64,000 nucleotides of DNA from Blastopirellula retiformator (GTDB lineage: Bacteria > Planctomycetota > Planctomycetia > Pirellulales > Pirellulaceae). The stretch covers positions 806,001-870,000 of the forward strand of contig NZ_SJPF01000003.1 of the NCBI RefSeq assembly GCF_007859755.1, written 5' to 3'. A program made the translations under genes and the position numbers. The notes beneath the pieces are model-generated. The model made no database searches. It saw only the letters and a list, made by a program, of their open reading frames with translations, and was not told the DNA's origin. Below are positions 20,789 to 28,896 of this stretch, in pieces (the first letter of the stretch is position 1; each line of letters begins with the position of its first letter).

Positions 20789-20963
20789 CGACAGTTTTTC
20801 CACGCGCAGGTCGCTAGCGTCTGGACATTGCGCCCGTTCGACTTACGACGCGACTTGGTCGGCTCTTTCCGTCGCTTGATTGCCGACGAAGATCGCCCAA
20901 GTATGATTGATCCCGCGACGATTGGTCGCGCCGGATCGACGAGTTATATCAGGGAAGGTTCTC

Positions 20964-22397
20964 ATGAAGACGAAATTCAACCGCGTCGATAGGGCGGATC
21001 GCGATAAGCCGCCAGCCAGCGAGATTTTCGATCGGCAGCCGCCGTGCAACCTGGAAGCGGAAATGGGAGTGCTTGGCAGCATCTTCCTGCTGCCCGATTG
21101 CGCCGACGAAGTGGTAATGATCGTCCGCCCCGACGACTTCTACGACGAGGGCAATAAGAAGCTGTACGAACATATGGTTCGTTTGCACGACAGCGGTCGC
21201 AAGATCGACCTGACGCTGTTGGCCGAGCAACTGAAAGCGGACGGCGACTACGAGTTCATCGGCGGCGCCGCCTACTTGGCCAAGGTGCTCAATAGCGTCC
21301 CCAATGCCGCTCACGCCGAGCACTACGCCCAAATCGTCGCCGCCAAGGCGATCAACCGCAATCTCATTGGGGCCGCGACCGATATCCTCCGCGACGCCTA
21401 TGAGGAGAACGACAAGTCAGATCGCCTAGTGAGCCGGGCGGAAGAAAAGATCTTTGCGATCACCGATACCCGCAGTTCGACCTCGATGGCGAACATGAGC
21501 GACATCGTCACCGCGTCGATGGAGCGTATCGACGCTCGACTTCGCGGCGAACACCTGGAAGATGGCGTCGCAACTGGCTACACCGATCTCGACGGCATGA
21601 CCGGCGGGTTCCATGGCTCGGAACTGCTGATTCTGGCGGCTCGTCCGTCGATGGGAAAAACGGCGTTCGCGATGAACATCGCCGAAAACGTCGCGGTGAA
21701 TGACAAGACGCCGGTGCTGTTTATCAGCCTTGAAATGGGAGCGATTGAACTTTGCGATCGTTTGCTCTGTTCGGTTGCAAAGGTTAACGGTCATCGCCTG
21801 CGAAATGGGACGATCTCGCAAGAGGATCGCCGCCGGTTGGTTGAGAAATCAGCCCTGGTCGCCGAGTCGCCGCTGTTCGTCGACGACTCCCCCTCGCGGA
21901 CGGTGTCGCAGATCGCGGCCGGCGCCCGGCGCATTAAGCGGCGTCACGGACGGTTGGGCTTGATTGTGATCGACTATTTGCAGCTGATTGAGCCGGACAA
22001 TTCGAGCGATCCTCGTCAGGAACAGGTCGCCAAGATCGCCCGACGTTTGAAGGGGATGGCGCGTGAAATGGACGTGCCGATCTTGTGCCTGGCGCAGCTG
22101 AATCGCCAAGCGGAAGCTTCGAAGGACAACCGGCCGAAGTTGAGTCACCTCCGCGAATCGGGGGCGATCGAACAAGATGCCGACGTTGTGATGTTCGTGC
22201 ACCGCGAAGAATACTATCATCATGGAGAGGAACGCGATCAGTTCGCCGGCAAGGCCGAAATCATTATCGGCAAACAGCGTAATGGGCCGGTGGGCGAAGT
22301 GCAACTGACCTGGCTCCGAGACTTTACCCGCTTTGAAAACGCGTTCGAGCGCGAGCCGGACGATTTCTCCGCCTTCAACGGCGGGGGCGAATTTTAA
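20964..22397 (+). CDS. dnaB: Replicative DNA helicase DnaB
   Basis: A 477-residue hexameric helicase that unwinds DNA at the fork. The N-terminal domain (PPCNLEAEMGVLGSIFL) interacts with primase, and the RecA-like C-terminal domain has Walker A (RPSMGKTAF) and Walker B (LIVIDYLQLI) plus the SHLRESGAIEQDADVVMF segment. The frame is open back to 20907, but the ATG at 20964 (MKTKFNRVD) has AGGGAAGG at a good distance and family-like length. There is no intein. The Bpt-like gene follows after 38 nt. Confidence 0.96.
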   Translation: MKTKFNRVDRADRDKPPASEIFDRQPPCNLEAEMGVLGSIFLLPDCADEVVMIVRPDDFYDEGNKKLYEHMVRLHDSGRKIDLTLLAEQLKADGDYEFIGGAAYLAKVLNSVPNAAHAEHYAQIVAAKAINRNLIGAATDILRDAYEENDKSDRLVSRAEEKIFAITDTRSSTSMANMSDIVTASMERIDARLRGEHLEDGVATGYTDLDGMTGGFHGSELLILAARPSMGKTAFAMNIAENVAVNDKTPVLFISLEMGAIELCDRLLCSVAKVNGHRLRNGTISQEDRRRLVEKSALVAESPLFVDDSPSRTVSQIAAGARRIKRRHGRLGLIVIDYLQLIEPDNSSDPRQEQVAKIARRLKGMAREMDVPILCLAQLNRQAEASKDNRPKLSHLRESGAIEQDADVVMFVHREEYYHHGEERDQFAGKAEIIIGKQRNGPVGEVQLTWLRDFTRFENAFEREPDDFSAFNGGGEF

Positions 22398-22435: not shown

Positions 22436-23152
22436 ATGGATCAGATCCTCGGATTCAAGGTTTGGGATCACGAAGAGCGGTGCCCCTATTTACCGGGACG
22501 TCAGGCCCGGCTGCCGCTCTACTATCCGTTGACTGCGATGTCGGGCGGCGACCTTGATCTGGCGCTCTCGCAGGGCGCGCGGCGGGCTGGCGTTTATCTC
22601 TATCATGTCTGCTGTCGCGCTTGTCGGGCGTGTGAGCCGATTCGGCTCGACGTGAAAAAGTTTGAGCCGCGACGTCGCCATCGACGCGTGCTAGCAAAAG
22701 GGGACGCCCGGCTGAGGATGAGCGTGGGTGCGCCGATCGCCGACGACGAGCATGCTCGCATCTACAACCTACATAAGTCAGAGCGAGGTTTGGCCGACGA
22801 GAACCAGGGGGCGATCAGCGCCCAGCAGTATCACGAGTTCCTGGTGCAGTCCTGCTGCGAGACGGTCGAGTTCGGCTACTATTTGGAGAATCGTTTGGTG
22901 GCGGCGGCGACGGCCGACCTGGGGGATGATTCGCTTTCCGCGGTTTACTGTTGCTACGACCCGAGTGAGAGCGGTTTGTCGCTGGGAACCTATTCCGTCT
23001 TGAAGCAGTGGGAATTTTGTCGCGAGACCGATCGCCGCTATCTATACCTTGGTTTCTACATCGCGGAGTCGCCCCACATGAACTACAAGGCGTCGTTTCT
23101 GCCGCATCAACGACGGATTGCCGGCGTATGGAGCGAGTTCTCGGATCGCTAG
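22436..23152 (+). CDS. bpt: Aminoacyl-tRNA-protein transferase (Bpt/Ate family)
   Basis: A 238-residue enzyme of the leucyl/arginyl transferase family, which attaches an amino acid from charged tRNA to the N-terminus of proteins marked for ClpS/ClpAP degradation (N-degron pathway). CPYLPGRQAR and the YHVCCRACRACEPIRLDV cysteine cluster at the N-terminal part are typical, as are GTYSVLKQWEFCRE and LYLGFYIAESPHMNYKASF near the end. Bpt transfers Leu to acidic N-termini; whether Leu or Arg is used cannot be told from sequence alone. It lies just behind dnaB. Confidence 0.86.
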   Translation: MDQILGFKVWDHEERCPYLPGRQARLPLYYPLTAMSGGDLDLALSQGARRAGVYLYHVCCRACRACEPIRLDVKKFEPRRRHRRVLAKGDARLRMSVGAPIADDEHARIYNLHKSERGLADENQGAISAQQYHEFLVQSCCETVEFGYYLENRLVAAATADLGDDSLSAVYCCYDPSESGLSLGTYSVLKQWEFCRETDRRYLYLGFYIAESPHMNYKASFLPHQRRIAGVWSEFSDR

Positions 23153-23353
23153 CACTTCTAGCGTCGAAACATGTCGAACCGATTCGACAACCGTCGCGTA
23201 TCGTATCGCATTGCTGATAGTTGCGCAAACAGAGCCGAATCCGTATTGCCCTGGCGTCGCTCATTCAGTATCTCTACCCAACCGCTTACTTAGGCTATAG
23301 CGCCTAACGCCGCGCACGGATCGCGCGGTGGGCCAGAATTCAAGGACGATATT

Positions 23354-24895
23354 GTGTTAAATTGCCGCCTAATAGCCGCTTTCGCACTCAGCATCGGGTG
23401 CGGTCTTTCGCTGCTTGTCGCAAGTTGCGAAACCAGTCTCGCCCAAGGTCTTGATCCTCGCAGCTTTGATCCGGCTCTGTTGACGCCGCCGCCTGCCGAA
23501 CCAGGCGCCATTCCGACGCGACCGTTGATCGTCGATCTGCGAATCACCGGCAACAACAGCACGCAGGAAGCGAAGATTCGCTCGATGATTCGCTCTCGTG
23601 CGGATCGCGAATTCGATCCAGAAATGATCCAGTCCGATGTCCGCAAATTGGCCGAATCAGGACTGTTTCGCGACGTCAAGATCTTGACGCAACAATCAGC
23701 GCAAGGCGTCGTCGTGACGTTCCAGGTGTTTGAGCGGCCGTCGATTCGCTACGTCAAGTTCCTTGGCAACGAGTCGGCGACCGAAAAGGCCCTGCTAAAA
23801 AAATCAGGGCTGGAAGTCGGCGGCGCCCTTAATCGGTTTGTCGTCGAAGACGCTCGCCGTCGCATCGAAGAATACTATCGAACCCGCGGGCATGGCATGG
23901 CGACGGTCACGATCGCCGAAGGCCTAGAGCAGGACGATACCGGCGTTGCCTTCATGGTGCATGAAGGTCCGCTGGCCCGCGTCCTGTCGACCAGTTTCGT
24001 CGGCAATACCATCGCCAGCGACGGCCGCTTGAAGACGCAAGTCAAATCGAAGCCTGGCTTCCTCTATTACATCCGGGGCAAAGTCGACATGGACCAGGTC
24101 GAAGCGGACGTCGAAGCGTTGACTTCGTACTACCGCGGGCTTGGCTACTTCCAGGCTCAGATCAACCGGATCATGGAGTACTCGGAATCGGGACTGTGGG
24201 TCGACATCACGTTCGTCGTGGACGAGGGGATGCGGTACGAAGTGCGTAACGTGTCGTTCGTTGGGCAGACCAAGTTCACCGAAGACCAACTTGGGACCCA
24301 GGTGAAGCTGCTGCAGGGGCAGTACTTCGACCAAAAGAAAATGAACTCAGACCTCGCGGCGCTGACCGACCTATATGGCGCCCAGGGATACATCCACGCG
24401 GACGTGCAAGCCGAACCTCGCTTTTTGGAAGAGCCGGGTCAGATTGACCTGGTTTACGACATTCGCGAAGGAGAGCAGTATCGCGTTGGCCGCATCGATG
24501 TGAACATCGATGGCGAGTACCCGCACACGCAGCGCGACGTCGTCTTGAATCGTTTGGACCTAGTGCCGGGCGACATTATCGACATCCGCAAGATTCGCGA
24601 TAGCGAACGCCGTTTGGTCTCGTCGCAGCTGTTCGTCAACGAACCGCACCGCGGCATCAAGCCGACGATTCAAGTGAAACCGCCGGAAGTTAGCGACATC
24701 GCCGACAAACGTGGCGGCGAGCAGTCTCCGACGTATCGCGGACAAAGCCCGGGACCAGCGGTTCAACCGGCCTACCATGGTCAGCCTCAGATGTCTCAGC
24801 CGCGGATGCCGGCCGTGCAGATGGGGCAGCGGATTGCTCCGGAAAACCTGCGTCCGTCTCGGTACTCGGCAAACCCTGCCGCGGCGCCTTGGTAA
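23354..24895 (+). CDS. BamA-like POTRA-only periplasmic protein
   Basis: A 513-residue protein with a Sec signal peptide (LIAAFALSIGCGLSLLVAS, then CETSLAQG; a lipobox-like Cys is possible) and about five POTRA-type repeats across residues 55-440 (for example the RGHGMATVTIAEGL and RYEVRNVSFVGQTKF segments). POTRA domains of BamA receive unfolded outer-membrane proteins. The usual C-terminal beta-barrel is absent: residues 440-513 are a Pro/Gln-rich tail. The barrel is found in the next gene. The start is GTG at 23354, preceded by AAGGA. Stop and next start are 60 nt apart, so the pair is probably cotranscribed. Confidence 0.85.
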   Translation: MLNCRLIAAFALSIGCGLSLLVASCETSLAQGLDPRSFDPALLTPPPAEPGAIPTRPLIVDLRITGNNSTQEAKIRSMIRSRADREFDPEMIQSDVRKLAESGLFRDVKILTQQSAQGVVVTFQVFERPSIRYVKFLGNESATEKALLKKSGLEVGGALNRFVVEDARRRIEEYYRTRGHGMATVTIAEGLEQDDTGVAFMVHEGPLARVLSTSFVGNTIASDGRLKTQVKSKPGFLYYIRGKVDMDQVEADVEALTSYYRGLGYFQAQINRIMEYSESGLWVDITFVVDEGMRYEVRNVSFVGQTKFTEDQLGTQVKLLQGQYFDQKKMNSDLAALTDLYGAQGYIHADVQAEPRFLEEPGQIDLVYDIREGEQYRVGRIDVNIDGEYPHTQRDVVLNRLDLVPGDIIDIRKIRDSERRLVSSQLFVNEPHRGIKPTIQVKPPEVSDIADKRGGEQSPTYRGQSPGPAVQPAYHGQPQMSQPRMPAVQMGQRIAPENLRPSRYSANPAAAPW

Positions 24896-24955
24896 CCTTG
24901 AAGCTTGCGACATTGATATTGGCGACCTCCCCCCCCGGTCGAGAAGGATTCCTTC

Positions 24956-26581
24956 GTGCGAGATAGCTGGAAACTTACAAGCCTGGCGCTGCTATCGGCC
25001 CTGTTTGCGGCCGTTGGCTGCACCACTCCGGGCGCACAGGTCGCGGCGATTCCCTCGACGTTTTCGACGGGCCCTGGGGCGGACCGTTCTGTGGTCGCCG
25101 TCGGCAAACCGCCGATCGTTCGTGCGCAAGACGCCGCACTTCCCGCCGACAACAGCGCGACGCGGCAAACGTCGCCGGGCAACGCCAACCAATACCGCGG
25201 CGGAATGCCTGCCTCGGGCGCGCCGATTCAACAGGCTCAATATACGGCTCCGCCGCTTCCGCAAGCTTCGGTCGCCGGACAAGTCGCTGCGCCGCAATCG
25301 ACGGTCGTCGGCGCCCCAACCTACGATCCGAACGCTTATGATCAGGCGGTCGCCAACGGCTACGTCCAGGCGCCGACATTGCCGCCGCCGGCCTCGGTCG
25401 GTCGCCCTTTGGGTGGCGCGCCGATTTACAATCCGCCGCTTGGCCCCGATCAGATCTATGGGCCCGACCCGGTCTATGACCCGGGCCGCCAACCATTCTT
25501 GCCGGGCCGCACGGCCGACATTCTGGTGAACGCCCAAGAGGCGCAAACCGGTCGCTTTCAGTTTGGCGTCGGAGTCAACTCGGATGCGGGCGTGACTGGC
25601 TCAATCGTCGTCGACGAACGCAACTTCGACTACGCGGCGGTGCCGACCAGCTGGGACGACGTCTGGAATGGCCGCGCCTTCCGCGGGGCAGGGCAGGGGT
25701 TCCGATTGGAAGCTTTGCCAGGTACCCAGGTGCAGCGCTACATGGCGACCTTCACCGAGCCGTACCTGTTCCGCACGAACATCAGCATGAACCTGAGCGG
25801 TTACTACTTTGACCGCATCTACCGCGACTGGAACGAAAACCGCGTTGGCGGCCGGATCGGCTTTGGTTATCGCCTGACTCCCGACTTGTCGGTCGGCGCC
25901 AATCTGCGATTGGAAAACGTCGATATCTCGGATCCGAGCACTAACGCCTCGGCCGATCTGAACGAAGCGATCGGCAGCCACGACCTGTTCAGCGGTCAGC
26001 TGACGGTGACGCACGATACGCGCGACCAGCCGTTCGCTCCGACCGAAGGGCACCTGGTCGAATTCAGCTTTGAACAAGCGTTCGGCACTTTCAGCTTCCC
26101 GCGAGCCGAAGTCGACATGCGTCGCTACTTCCTGCTGCGAGAACGCGCCGACGGTTCTGGCCGCCATACGCTTGGCTTCTCGGGCCGGGCCGGGTTCTCC
26201 GGATCGGATACGCCGATCTTTGAGAACTACTTTGCGGGCGGTTACTCGACCTTGCGTGGTTTCGATTTCCGCGGCATCGGTCCTGTCCAAGGGGGCGTCT
26301 ATACCGGTGGTCCGTTCCGCGTACTGGGGTCGGTGGAATATATGTTTCCGATCACGGCGGACGACATGCTGAAAGGGGTGATCTTCACCGACGTCGGTAC
26401 CGTTCAAGAGTCGGTGAAGCTACCGTGGGACGAGTTTGACATTGCGCCTGGTTTCGGACTTCGCATTTCGGTGCCGGCTCTTGGTCAAGCTCCGATCGCG
26501 CTCGACTTCGCCTTCCCGGTCAACAAAGCTGACAGCGACCGTACGCAGGTCTTCAGCTTCTTCATCGGTTACGCTCGTTAG
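24956..26581 (+). CDS. BamA/TamA-type outer-membrane beta-barrel, predicted lipoprotein
   Basis: A 541-residue protein with an N-terminal signal (LTSLALLSALFAAVGC, lipobox LFAAVGC-like, Cys near 22), a 160-residue Pro/Ala/Gln-rich linker and a C-terminal Omp85 beta-barrel from about residue 200. The barrel has the loop-6 motif LRGFDFRGIGP (the VRGF/Y motif of BamA) and ends in alternating aromatic residues (FFIGYAR). There is no POTRA domain; these sit in the gene directly upstream. The start is GTG at 24956 with GAGAAGG before it. The first of two family-B repeats begins 45 nt after the stop. Confidence 0.85.
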   Translation: MRDSWKLTSLALLSALFAAVGCTTPGAQVAAIPSTFSTGPGADRSVVAVGKPPIVRAQDAALPADNSATRQTSPGNANQYRGGMPASGAPIQQAQYTAPPLPQASVAGQVAAPQSTVVGAPTYDPNAYDQAVANGYVQAPTLPPPASVGRPLGGAPIYNPPLGPDQIYGPDPVYDPGRQPFLPGRTADILVNAQEAQTGRFQFGVGVNSDAGVTGSIVVDERNFDYAAVPTSWDDVWNGRAFRGAGQGFRLEALPGTQVQRYMATFTEPYLFRTNISMNLSGYYFDRIYRDWNENRVGGRIGFGYRLTPDLSVGANLRLENVDISDPSTNASADLNEAIGSHDLFSGQLTVTHDTRDQPFAPTEGHLVEFSFEQAFGTFSFPRAEVDMRRYFLLRERADGSGRHTLGFSGRAGFSGSDTPIFENYFAGGYSTLRGFDFRGIGPVQGGVYTGGPFRVLGSVEYMFPITADDMLKGVIFTDVGTVQESVKLPWDEFDIAPGFGLRISVPALGQAPIALDFAFPVNKADSDRTQVFSFFIGYAR

Positions 26582-27268: not shown

Positions 27269-28135
27269 CTATTCCAGGCCGCAGCCGATCTCGTAGATCT
27301 CTTCCGCGTTCAGGACGAGATCGTTCTGCTCAAAGATTCGGACCAGCGCCTGCTTGTGGATCTTCATCTTGGTCCCGCCAACGCCAATGGCGCCGTAGCA
27401 GATCCGGCCGTCCCGCTCTTTCGCTTTGTCCATCGGATCGACTCCTTCCAAGCCAACCGGTGGGGCGGCATTCAGGTCGATCAGCACCTTCAAGTCACTC
27501 GCGCTGCGCAGCGACGGTTCGCTGGCCAACTGCACGTTGGCGGCTCCGGCGGCGATGACGACGGCGGCGCCTTGCAGGGCGTCCGCCAGACCGGCGTCGT
27601 CACTGACGGCCAGCGGCAGGAACGTACCGTCGGGGATGTCGGCTTTTAGAGCGTCACAGACTGCCGTCGCCTTGTCGAGTTTGCGCGAAGCGACTCGGAC
27701 GCGAGCCCCTTGTCGCGCCAGCAGACGTGCGGCCCGTTGACCGACTGGGCCGGTACCCGCCAGAACCAGCGCTTCGGCGCCATCGAGCGGCAGATGGCGG
27801 CCGGCGGCGATGACGGCTGCGGCGGCGGTCGTGTTGGCGCCGTTGGGGTCAAACAAGATCGAAACCCGCATCGGCCCGAAAAAGCTGCTGGTGGCTTCTT
27901 TCAGCAGGGTCTCGGCCTGCGGGACGTCGCCGCCGCCGACAAAAATCGCCGAGTTCTTCAGCTCGGCCGGCGATCGCGTGAAGATCAAACCATAGACCAG
28001 TCCGCGAACCTGATCGGCGGTAACGCCGCCATGTCGAAAGAGTTGATCGACGCCGGCGTCGACGGCGACAACGCTGTCGAAGGTGCTGACTTGCGGATCG
28101 GGATCGAGCTGCAACAAGACTTTGGCGGTGGACAT
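27269..28135 (-). CDS. mtdB: NAD(P)-dependent methylene-tetrahydromethanopterin dehydrogenase
   Basis: A 288-residue enzyme that oxidises methylene-H4MPT to methenyl-H4MPT in the tetrahydromethanopterin C1 pathway. The N-terminal part has RVSILFDPNGANTTAAAAV, and the Rossmann domain has VLAGTGPVGQRAARLLA (GxGPVG) and the closing GAIGVGGTKMKIHKQAL, all typical of MtdB/MtdA. Planctomycetes are known to carry this pathway, otherwise found in methylotrophic proteobacteria and methanogens. The fae gene lies directly upstream on the same strand, with a terminator between them, so the two need not share all transcripts. Confidence 0.9.
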   Translation of the reverse strand: MSTAKVLLQLDPDPQVSTFDSVVAVDAGVDQLFRHGGVTADQVRGLVYGLIFTRSPAELKNSAIFVGGGDVPQAETLLKEATSSFFGPMRVSILFDPNGANTTAAAAVIAAGRHLPLDGAEALVLAGTGPVGQRAARLLARQGARVRVASRKLDKATAVCDALKADIPDGTFLPLAVSDDAGLADALQGAAVVIAAGAANVQLASEPSLRSASDLKVLIDLNAAPPVGLEGVDPMDKAKERDGRICYGAIGVGGTKMKIHKQALVRIFEQNDLVLNAEEIYEIGCGLE

Positions 28136-28226: not shown

Positions 28227-28724
28227 CTAGAAGCCGCGGAACGGGTGGGCCGCTTTTTCTTTACCGGCCAGAACTTCGTCGACCGTCGGCTTGGCGCCCA
28301 TGGCGTTAGCGATCGACTGCTTGGTCGCTTCGTAGTTGTAGTCGAAGATTTTCTTGTCGTCGGCTGCGTCCCAGTGAATGAACACGCCGCAGACGATGAC
28401 CAAGTCTTCGCACTGATCTTTGGGGATGATGCCGGCTTCGACCGAATCGGCGACCGCCTTGGCGACGGCGGCTTGAGCCGGGCCAAACATCTGAGTCGCT
28501 TGCTTGGCGCCCTTAATAGTCACCTTGGTGATGGTGACGGTGGCCGGTTTGACCAGCAGGTTCGGCTCCAGCACGGCGAGCAGATTCGAGTGCCCGGCGG
28601 TTTGGGTCGCCAAAGCGCTGGCGAACGCGGCGCCAACGGGGCCCGTCTTGGAGCCGATCATGAGATCGATATGAGCGATTTCGTTGCCCTTGCCAGCGAG
28701 CGCTTCGCCAATGAACATCGACAT
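28227..28724 (-). CDS. fae: Formaldehyde-activating enzyme
   Basis: A 165-residue enzyme that condenses formaldehyde with tetrahydromethanopterin to methylene-H4MPT. The conserved His lies in AHIDLMIG; GPAQAAVAKAVADSVEAGIIP and CEDLVIVCGVFIHW are typical blocks, and length fits. The frame extends to 28781, but the ATG at 28724 (MSMFIGEAL) has GGGAGAAA at the right distance and matches family starts. It produces the substrate of the neighbouring MtdB, so the two catalyse consecutive steps. Confidence 0.93.
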   Translation of the reverse strand: MSMFIGEALAGKGNEIAHIDLMIGSKTGPVGAAFASALATQTAGHSNLLAVLEPNLLVKPATVTITKVTIKGAKQATQMFGPAQAAVAKAVADSVEAGIIPKDQCEDLVIVCGVFIHWDAADDKKIFDYNYEATKQSIANAMGAKPTVDEVLAGKEKAAHPFRGF

Positions 28725-28896
28725 GCGTAGTTTCTCCCGAAAGTGAAGATTGGATGGAGCGTCCCGAACTGGGCGCCGCATGGAGGAAAGGTTGGGGGGC
28801 GGCGCCCCTGGCAGCGCACATTCGCAATGTTAGAGCGCGATACGGGCCCAATGCCGTTCAGAAAAACTTATCAAACCCCGACGCGATTGCAACCAT

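Follow-up and report, generated by a model that had tools for sequence, protein, structure and literature searches.

A stretch of 64,000 nucleotides (nt) from the planctomycete Blastopirellula retiformator (contig NZ_SJPF01000003.1, positions 806,001 to 870,000; hereafter the window) carries two adjacent plus-strand genes that most likely represent a single bamA gene after fission, their products forming an obligate two-chain BamA in which the fifth POTRA domain (POTRA5) is completed in trans. Gene 1 (23354..24895; 513 amino acids, aa) encodes a POTRA protein corresponding to the N-terminal half of BamA, and gene 2 (24956..26581; 541 aa), which starts 60 nt after the stop of gene 1 on the same strand, encodes a barrel protein corresponding to the C-terminal half. 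Comparative sequence analysis shows that the split is real and conserved, and together with structural models it makes it likely that the pair functions as two chains. An earlier note on this DNA had proposed that BamA is divided over these two adjacent genes, a proposal upheld by the presence of a single Omp85 protein in the genome, the conservation of the pair, the fold obtained in silico, and the single-chain relatives that surround the split lineages.

The characteristic domains of BamA were found to be distributed over the two open reading frames (ORFs). Five PF07244 (POTRA) stretches could be detected in gene 1 (E 1.9e-50), which lacks a barrel, and the PF01103 (Omp85) profile was matched by gene 2 over positions 2-323 of 325 (E 6.5e-52), with no POTRA match. 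BamA was the best NCBIfam profile for the pair, and this profile (TIGR03303) was divided without overlap, with positions 3-370 falling in gene 1 and positions 418-738, the best stretch, in gene 2. The two halves scored 218.6 and 167.7 bits, and the equivalog cut-off of 297.15 bits is reached by neither chain alone, which implies that annotation by full-length score can miss a split BamA. Scores were far lower for the TamA profile (22 and 44.2 bits vs a cut-off of 625) and the lipo_TamL profile (36.3 and 30.2 bits vs a cut-off of 400). Sequence matches in the PDB were mostly BamA chains for the POTRA half, and TamA chains followed by BamA chains for the barrel half alone. POTRA1 (23528..23737), POTRA2 (23741..23968), POTRA3 (23987..24229), and POTRA4 (24236..24472), all on the plus strand, are complete PF07244 stretches on gene 1, and a weak stretch under the cut-off (24497-24616, +; profile positions 5-43 of 79) lies in POTRA5. 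The Omp85 barrel of gene 2 (25550..26578, +) is supported by PF01103 and by strands in both structural models, and contains an RGF motif at residues 434-436 (26255..26263, +), in what we take to be loop L6, whose three residues are invariant in alignment A1; in alignment A3, R and G are invariant and F is conserved in at least 90%. The five POTRA domains expected of BamA are therefore provided by the pair and not by one chain, four being complete on gene 1 and the fifth shared, and the POTRA string and the barrel are encoded by two ORFs instead of one polypeptide.

The break itself is placed by homology and by the models inside POTRA5, with the last strand of the domain on gene 2, and not between the POTRA string and the barrel, which is a new feature of the system. 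In a comparison of 17 single-chain relatives, most proteins from other classes had strand 2 of POTRA5 followed by a short loop, strand 3, and the barrel. In the single-chain BamA of the window's class, a long linker rich in Pro, Gln, and Ser occupies this loop between strands 2 and 3, and sequence comparison shows the coding frame to be broken inside the same linker in Pirellulaceae and some other lineages of the order. Between fixed points, the linker ranges from 115 to 506 residues among 58 single-chain members of the window's class and from 1 to 60 residues (median 19) among seven proteins from other classes of the phylum; single-chain planctomycete BamA proteins are about 830-1580 aa long in the listed cases. 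In the window, a tail closes gene 1 after strand 2, whereas gene 2 opens with a signal and the linker, and the third strand, ADILVNAQEAQTGRF, comes next. The part of POTRA5 that lies on gene 1 and lacks the last strand (beta1, alpha1, alpha2, and beta2; gene-1 residues 376-442; 24479..24679, +) was recovered in both models and is followed by a mostly disordered tail of 71 residues (443-513; 24680..24892, +), in which the predicted local confidence (pLDDT) falls below 50 from residue 456 or 448, depending on the model. On the other side of the break, a Pro/Ala-rich linker of about 160 residues (gene-2 residues 23-184; 25022..25507, +), with pLDDT below 50 nearly throughout, precedes the predicted beta3 strand of POTRA5 (residues 185-195; 25508..25540, +), which is supported by homology, both models, and alternating hydrophobic residues. 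Among 61 split barrels of the family, hydrophobic residues occupy position -9 before the TG junction in 97% and position -7 in 93%, with a Pro-rich region upstream, and the corresponding values for 60 fused proteins from the class are 95% at -9, 63% at -7, and 83% at -11. The earlier note had described gene 1 as a signal plus five POTRA domains without a barrel, and gene 2 as a lipobox, a Pro/Ala-rich linker, and an RGF-containing barrel without POTRA. The elements of both descriptions were all found, except that POTRA5 is incomplete on gene 1 and its last strand appears to be carried by gene 2.

The predicted structures are consistent with this division. AlphaFold was supplied with a pseudo-chain of 1075 residues, obtained by reading the window through three in-frame stops. 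In the resulting models the two halves together adopt a single BamA-like fold, which is also obtained, with lower confidence, when the alignment contains only split sequences. Model 1, based on 47 single-chain relatives (alignment A1), has a mean pLDDT of 74.2 and a predicted TM-score (pTM) of 0.65; it places POTRA5 strands at residues 376-386 and 438-442, the ordered strand that follows them being at 719-729 (gene-2 residues 185-195), and the 305 residues with pLDDT below 50 lie chiefly at the start and at 456-707. Model 2, based on 15 split loci only (alignment A5), contains the same elements, with the strand at 720-729, a mean pLDDT of 68.0, and a pTM of 0.52. When both models were compared with the PDB by Foldseek, BamA entries ranked at the top, with alignments of about 1,070-1,125 columns that extend across both halves. 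The TM-scores by target were mostly 0.4-0.6 and the root-mean-square deviations large, as expected for a flexible string of domains.

The pair accounts for every Omp85 and POTRA match in the source genome (6.2 Mb, 10 contigs, 97.33% complete). A genome-wide search at E<=1 yielded a single PF01103 match, and POTRA matches were confined to gene 1. A second BamA or TamA was therefore rejected as a candidate, and the separate full-length BamA that the earlier note had considered damaging to its proposal was not found in the genome. TamB (PF04357) had no match in the genome at E<=0.01, in a search whose control matched in 6 of 14 genomes. Thirteen YfiO (BamD) matches were present, all of the repeat type (best E 8.3e-7), and an OmpH (Skp) match was located on a different contig from the pair.

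A survey of Pirellulaceae demonstrated that the two-gene arrangement is a property of the family. Each half was matched in 227 of 241 family genomes: both halves were found in 223, neither in 10 (including G268, which is 96% complete in 80 contigs), and one half only in 8 (four barrel and four POTRA). Positions were listed for 150 genomes per half, 107 of which were common to both listings, and in 104 of these 107 the pair is adjacent on one strand with no more than 805 bases between the matched parts; in the remaining three, the two halves fall on different contigs, and every match is located at the end of its contig. Conserved adjacency across planctomycete genomes was one of the checks suggested in the earlier note. 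Among the four one-half genomes inspected (G277, G281, G305, and G413, the other four being G364, G401, G378, and G417), true loss of the partner was not seen, as all have their match at a contig end, and none of the listed family barrels lies within an open frame longer than 720 residues. In total, 61 family loci from 55 genera were read, comprising the window and 60 others, which do not constitute a random sample since they were hand-chosen from the listed positions. In all 61, the two ORFs are separate, adjacent, and on one strand, and their frames differ in 47 and coincide in 14 (the window and 13 others). The flanks are less conserved than the pair: the commonest neighbour family (Mpt_N dehydrogenase-like) occurs in 13 of the 61 loci and a DnaB neighbour in 12 (the window and 11 of the 60 others), these counts being lower bounds because about 4 kb of flank, or less at contig ends, was available per locus. 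No conserved operon partner was seen within these flanks.

Comparison with the rest of the phylum suggests that the split of BamA inside POTRA5 is probably recurrent in the order. An Omp85 match was present in all 244 genomes of a phylum sample, and the matches listed for the remaining families of the order are mostly single-chain. Matches were found in 7 of 7 genomes of f3 (frames of 966-1263 aa) and in 96 of 101 genomes of f2, where the best match lies in a frame of at least 900 aa in 81 of the 96. Thirteen of the 15 shorter f2 frames (all except those of G524 and G553) were inspected, of which seven are split and six run off a contig end. A wider survey of the order found matches in 286 of 296 genomes, and 26 further loci were read among the matches listed, f71 and many survey positions being outside that listing; all eight loci from f66, f67, f68, and f72 are split, and a single chain is encoded at all 18 loci from 12 other families. 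The first of two trees, with 82 rows (every second family row, omitting L080, L085, L086, and two short f2 rows), implied two state changes. A second tree of 84 rows covering more families required at least five changes and rejected a single group of all 36 split rows (log-likelihood 144.9 lower, p-AU 0.0026); it included one in three family rows and every second fused f2 row plus two, and the long-branch f2 rows L183, L189, L193, and L197 and the outgroup rows L080, L082, L085, and L086 were omitted by hand. In both trees, single-chain BamA relatives surround the split lineages, and the outgroup proteins from other classes are single-chain; thus, fission is likelier than fusion, and later re-fusion may have occurred in some lineages.

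In the mechanism proposed here, the product of gene 1 would reside in the periplasm and contain POTRA1-4 together with a POTRA5 left open, and that of gene 2 would be an outer-membrane barrel, usually with a lipid-anchored N-terminus, in which the missing POTRA5 strand forms the first ordered element. This strand would dock in the open POTRA5 sheet by strand complementation and restore the joint between POTRA5 and the barrel, and the pair would insert barrel proteins as the only BamA of the cell. The parts might be held at the membrane by the lipid anchor and by the disordered tails, whose RGQ motifs may bind partners. A broader version of this proposal has about an even chance of being correct, namely that BamA of Pirellulaceae is an obligate two-subunit machine with a donated POTRA5 strand, that this machine arose several times because the linker made the break tolerable, and that the R[GA]Q motifs on either side of the break serve to dock a partner or to join the halves.

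Several observations weigh against the two-chain BamA and its recurrent origin. The tether in the pseudo-chain is artificial and favours the meeting of the halves, and the gene-2 strand was assigned by DSSP; POTRA5 completion in trans, like the binding of the two proteins to each other, is inferred from sequences and models. Model 2, the one derived from split loci, is of modest confidence. Four family loci (L117, L131, L139, and L143) have an altered strand 3 that lacks the conserved Glu, and two Omp85 matches each were found in seven family genomes (G404, G316, G368, G455, G376, G297, and G377). With regard to recurrence, a single origin is not rejected by the 82-row tree (p-AU 0.138, with a log-likelihood 33.0 lower). 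The larger tree has a weak backbone, 25 of its 81 inner branches being open, which makes the number of fissions uncertain.

Other explanations of the pair were also considered. The two proteins might act apart, as a soluble periplasmic POTRA chaperone and a barrel insertase that needs no POTRA. Omp85 proteins without an N-terminal extension do exist, and Sam50 is cited as functional after POTRA removal in the consulted part of an Omp85 survey (PMC4104836); separate signals on the two chains would also fit such an arrangement. However, the barrel retains the last POTRA5 strand, which would have no evident use alone, and the pair stays adjacent while its neighbours change, so that independent action appears unlikely. 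It is very improbable that the barrel is another kind of Omp85 protein (TamA-like, a surface lipoprotein, or a secretion pore) with BAM function residing elsewhere. The lipobox is reminiscent of the Bacteroidetes Omp85 lipoprotein subfamily and TamA chains are the top PDB sequence matches of the barrel half alone, as mentioned above, but the genome yielded neither another Omp85 match nor a TamB match, the best NCBIfam profile is that of BamA, and in the trees the pair clusters with single-chain BamA from its own class.

Occasional synthesis of both halves as a single chain, through stop-codon readthrough or frameshifting, can be given next to no weight. In its favour, the ORFs of the window share a frame, as do those of 13 of the other 60 family loci, and just one stop separates the ORFs in 10 of these 13. 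Nevertheless, a common frame in 14 of 61 loci is less than the one third expected by chance, three in-frame stops (TAA, TGA, and TGA) separate the ORFs of the window, and gene 2 carries its own signal peptide. A sequencing error or readthrough as the source of the split was likewise rejected because the frames differ in 47 of the 61 loci, and the view of the earlier note that a frameshift split is unlikely is strengthened by the separate ORFs at every family locus read. A two-chain BamA produced by gene fission thus continues to be the preferred interpretation.

With respect to membrane attachment, a predicted lipid anchor on the barrel chain is usual and not universal, as judged by a home-made lipobox rule instead of a trained predictor. 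In the window, the predicted lipoprotein signal of gene 2 (24956..25021, +) contains the lipobox AAVGC with Cys22. Among the 61 family barrels, 47 carry a lipobox behind a hydrophobic stretch, 10 have such a stretch without a match, and none was found in 4; the no-match rows include lipobox-like ends (L096, L100, L118, and L121), and a looser scan detected a lipobox in L109 and L138. The lipid anchor suggested in the earlier note is hence predicted here and common, without extending to every member of the family. The same rule matched four of the seven split f2 barrels, and it matched none of L089-L091 (genus g2), the tree neighbours nearest to the window's genus. Two split f2 barrels (L162 and L163) have a signal with no lipobox match. 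Given the signals without lipobox in these five loci, lipidation of the barrel half seems to be changeable. Among the POTRA proteins, the rule matched 9 of 61, including gene 1 of the window and excluding its closest relatives, L087 and L088.

The disordered ends at the break contain a recurrent R[GA]Q motif (mostly RGQSP), represented in the window by RGQSP in the gene 1 tail (residues 462-466; 24737..24751, +) and by RAQ in the gene 2 linker (residues 56-58; 25121..25129, +). It is present in 33 of 61 family gene-1 tails (shuffled mean 2.7) and in 42 of 61 gene-2 linkers, taken as the 150 residues before the barrel (shuffled mean 5.1), with 34 occurrences vs 2.8 after shuffling in the tails and 46 vs 5.3 in the linkers. 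The fused linkers are also enriched (31 vs 4.8 in f2, 9 vs 1.1 in f3, and 27 vs 1.3 in f4), and those of L067-L079 and L172-L198 repeat the motif as well. This excess is inflated by shared descent, and the motif is missing in 28 of 61 tails and 19 of 61 linkers (L131 and L140 among them). A search with the RGQ pattern also hits unrelated sites, with 41 hits listed in 25 genomes vs 5 for the reversed control, none of the 41 being in the window's own genome. In two genomes of the window's genus (G270 and G195; L216 and L218), RGQSPE was observed in a 392-residue ORF whose start looks secreted-like by eye, and its product may share a binding partner with BamA.

Compared with known systems, the pair is closest to BamA of the Escherichia coli and Neisseria BAM complexes, in which five POTRA domains are followed by an RGF-containing Omp85 barrel; TIGR03303 spans both halves, the models match BamA structures, and the pair is the only Omp85 protein of its genome. 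The differences are the two chains, the divided POTRA5, the disordered ends at the break, and the lipobox on the barrel chain. Single-chain planctomycete BamA has the same domains, linker position, and RGQ motifs and differs in being encoded by one ORF. The 'noNterm' subfamily of Omp85 proteins resembles gene 2 in having a barrel without complete POTRA domains on its own chain, as far as the consulted part of its description goes (PMC4104836), but here a linker of some 160 residues and a POTRA5 strand precede the barrel, and the adjoining POTRA gene is conserved. According to the same part of that source, Bacteroidetes Omp85 lipoproteins (TamL) likewise have a predicted lipid anchor on an Omp85 protein, and the anchor precedes POTRA1 on one chain in TamL, whereas in the pair it is found ahead of the linker on the barrel chain. 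Three E. coli BAM structures (PDB 9h84, 9h85, and 9h89), which judging by their titles are engineered and have an altered BamA hinge, were compared by title only.

No report of a split BamA was found in the titles and abstract openings of the top-ranked open-licence papers. In Speth et al. (2012), a single BamA accession is listed for Pirellula, for Blastopirellula, and for each of two Rhodopirellula strains, and neither POTRA nor split appears as a word in the text (PMC3422733). Heinz and Lithgow (2014) distinguished ten Omp85 subfamilies, and in the consulted portion neither a two-gene BamA is described nor are planctomycetes named in the main text (PMC4104836). Current BamA models include a movement of POTRA5 relative to the barrel, as outlined in a 2026 review that does not name planctomycetes in the portion seen (PMC13067283). 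BamA is normally treated as a single chain. A lineage that cut it at the joint between POTRA5 and the barrel, apparently on several occasions, suggests that this joint can do without covalent continuity. The pair may thus offer a natural system for testing the role of this joint, the pairing of POTRA and barrel modules, and barrel insertion in the little-studied planctomycete envelope.

Putative ribosome-binding sites, recognised directly in the sequence, precede both GTG starts on the plus strand: AAGGAC (23342..23347) 6 nt upstream of gene 1 and GAGAAGGA (24941..24948) 7 nt upstream of gene 2. No terminator-like site was seen between the two genes on the plus strand, and promoter and terminator scans gave nothing above chance. 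Upstream of the pair are genes for a DnaB helicase (20907-22397) and an arginyl-tRNA-protein transferase (22436-23152). Downstream, on the minus strand, are genes for an Mpt_N methylene-tetrahydromethanopterin dehydrogenase-like protein (27269-28135) and a formaldehyde-activating enzyme (Fae, 28227-28781), both of which belong to tetrahydromethanopterin C1 metabolism.

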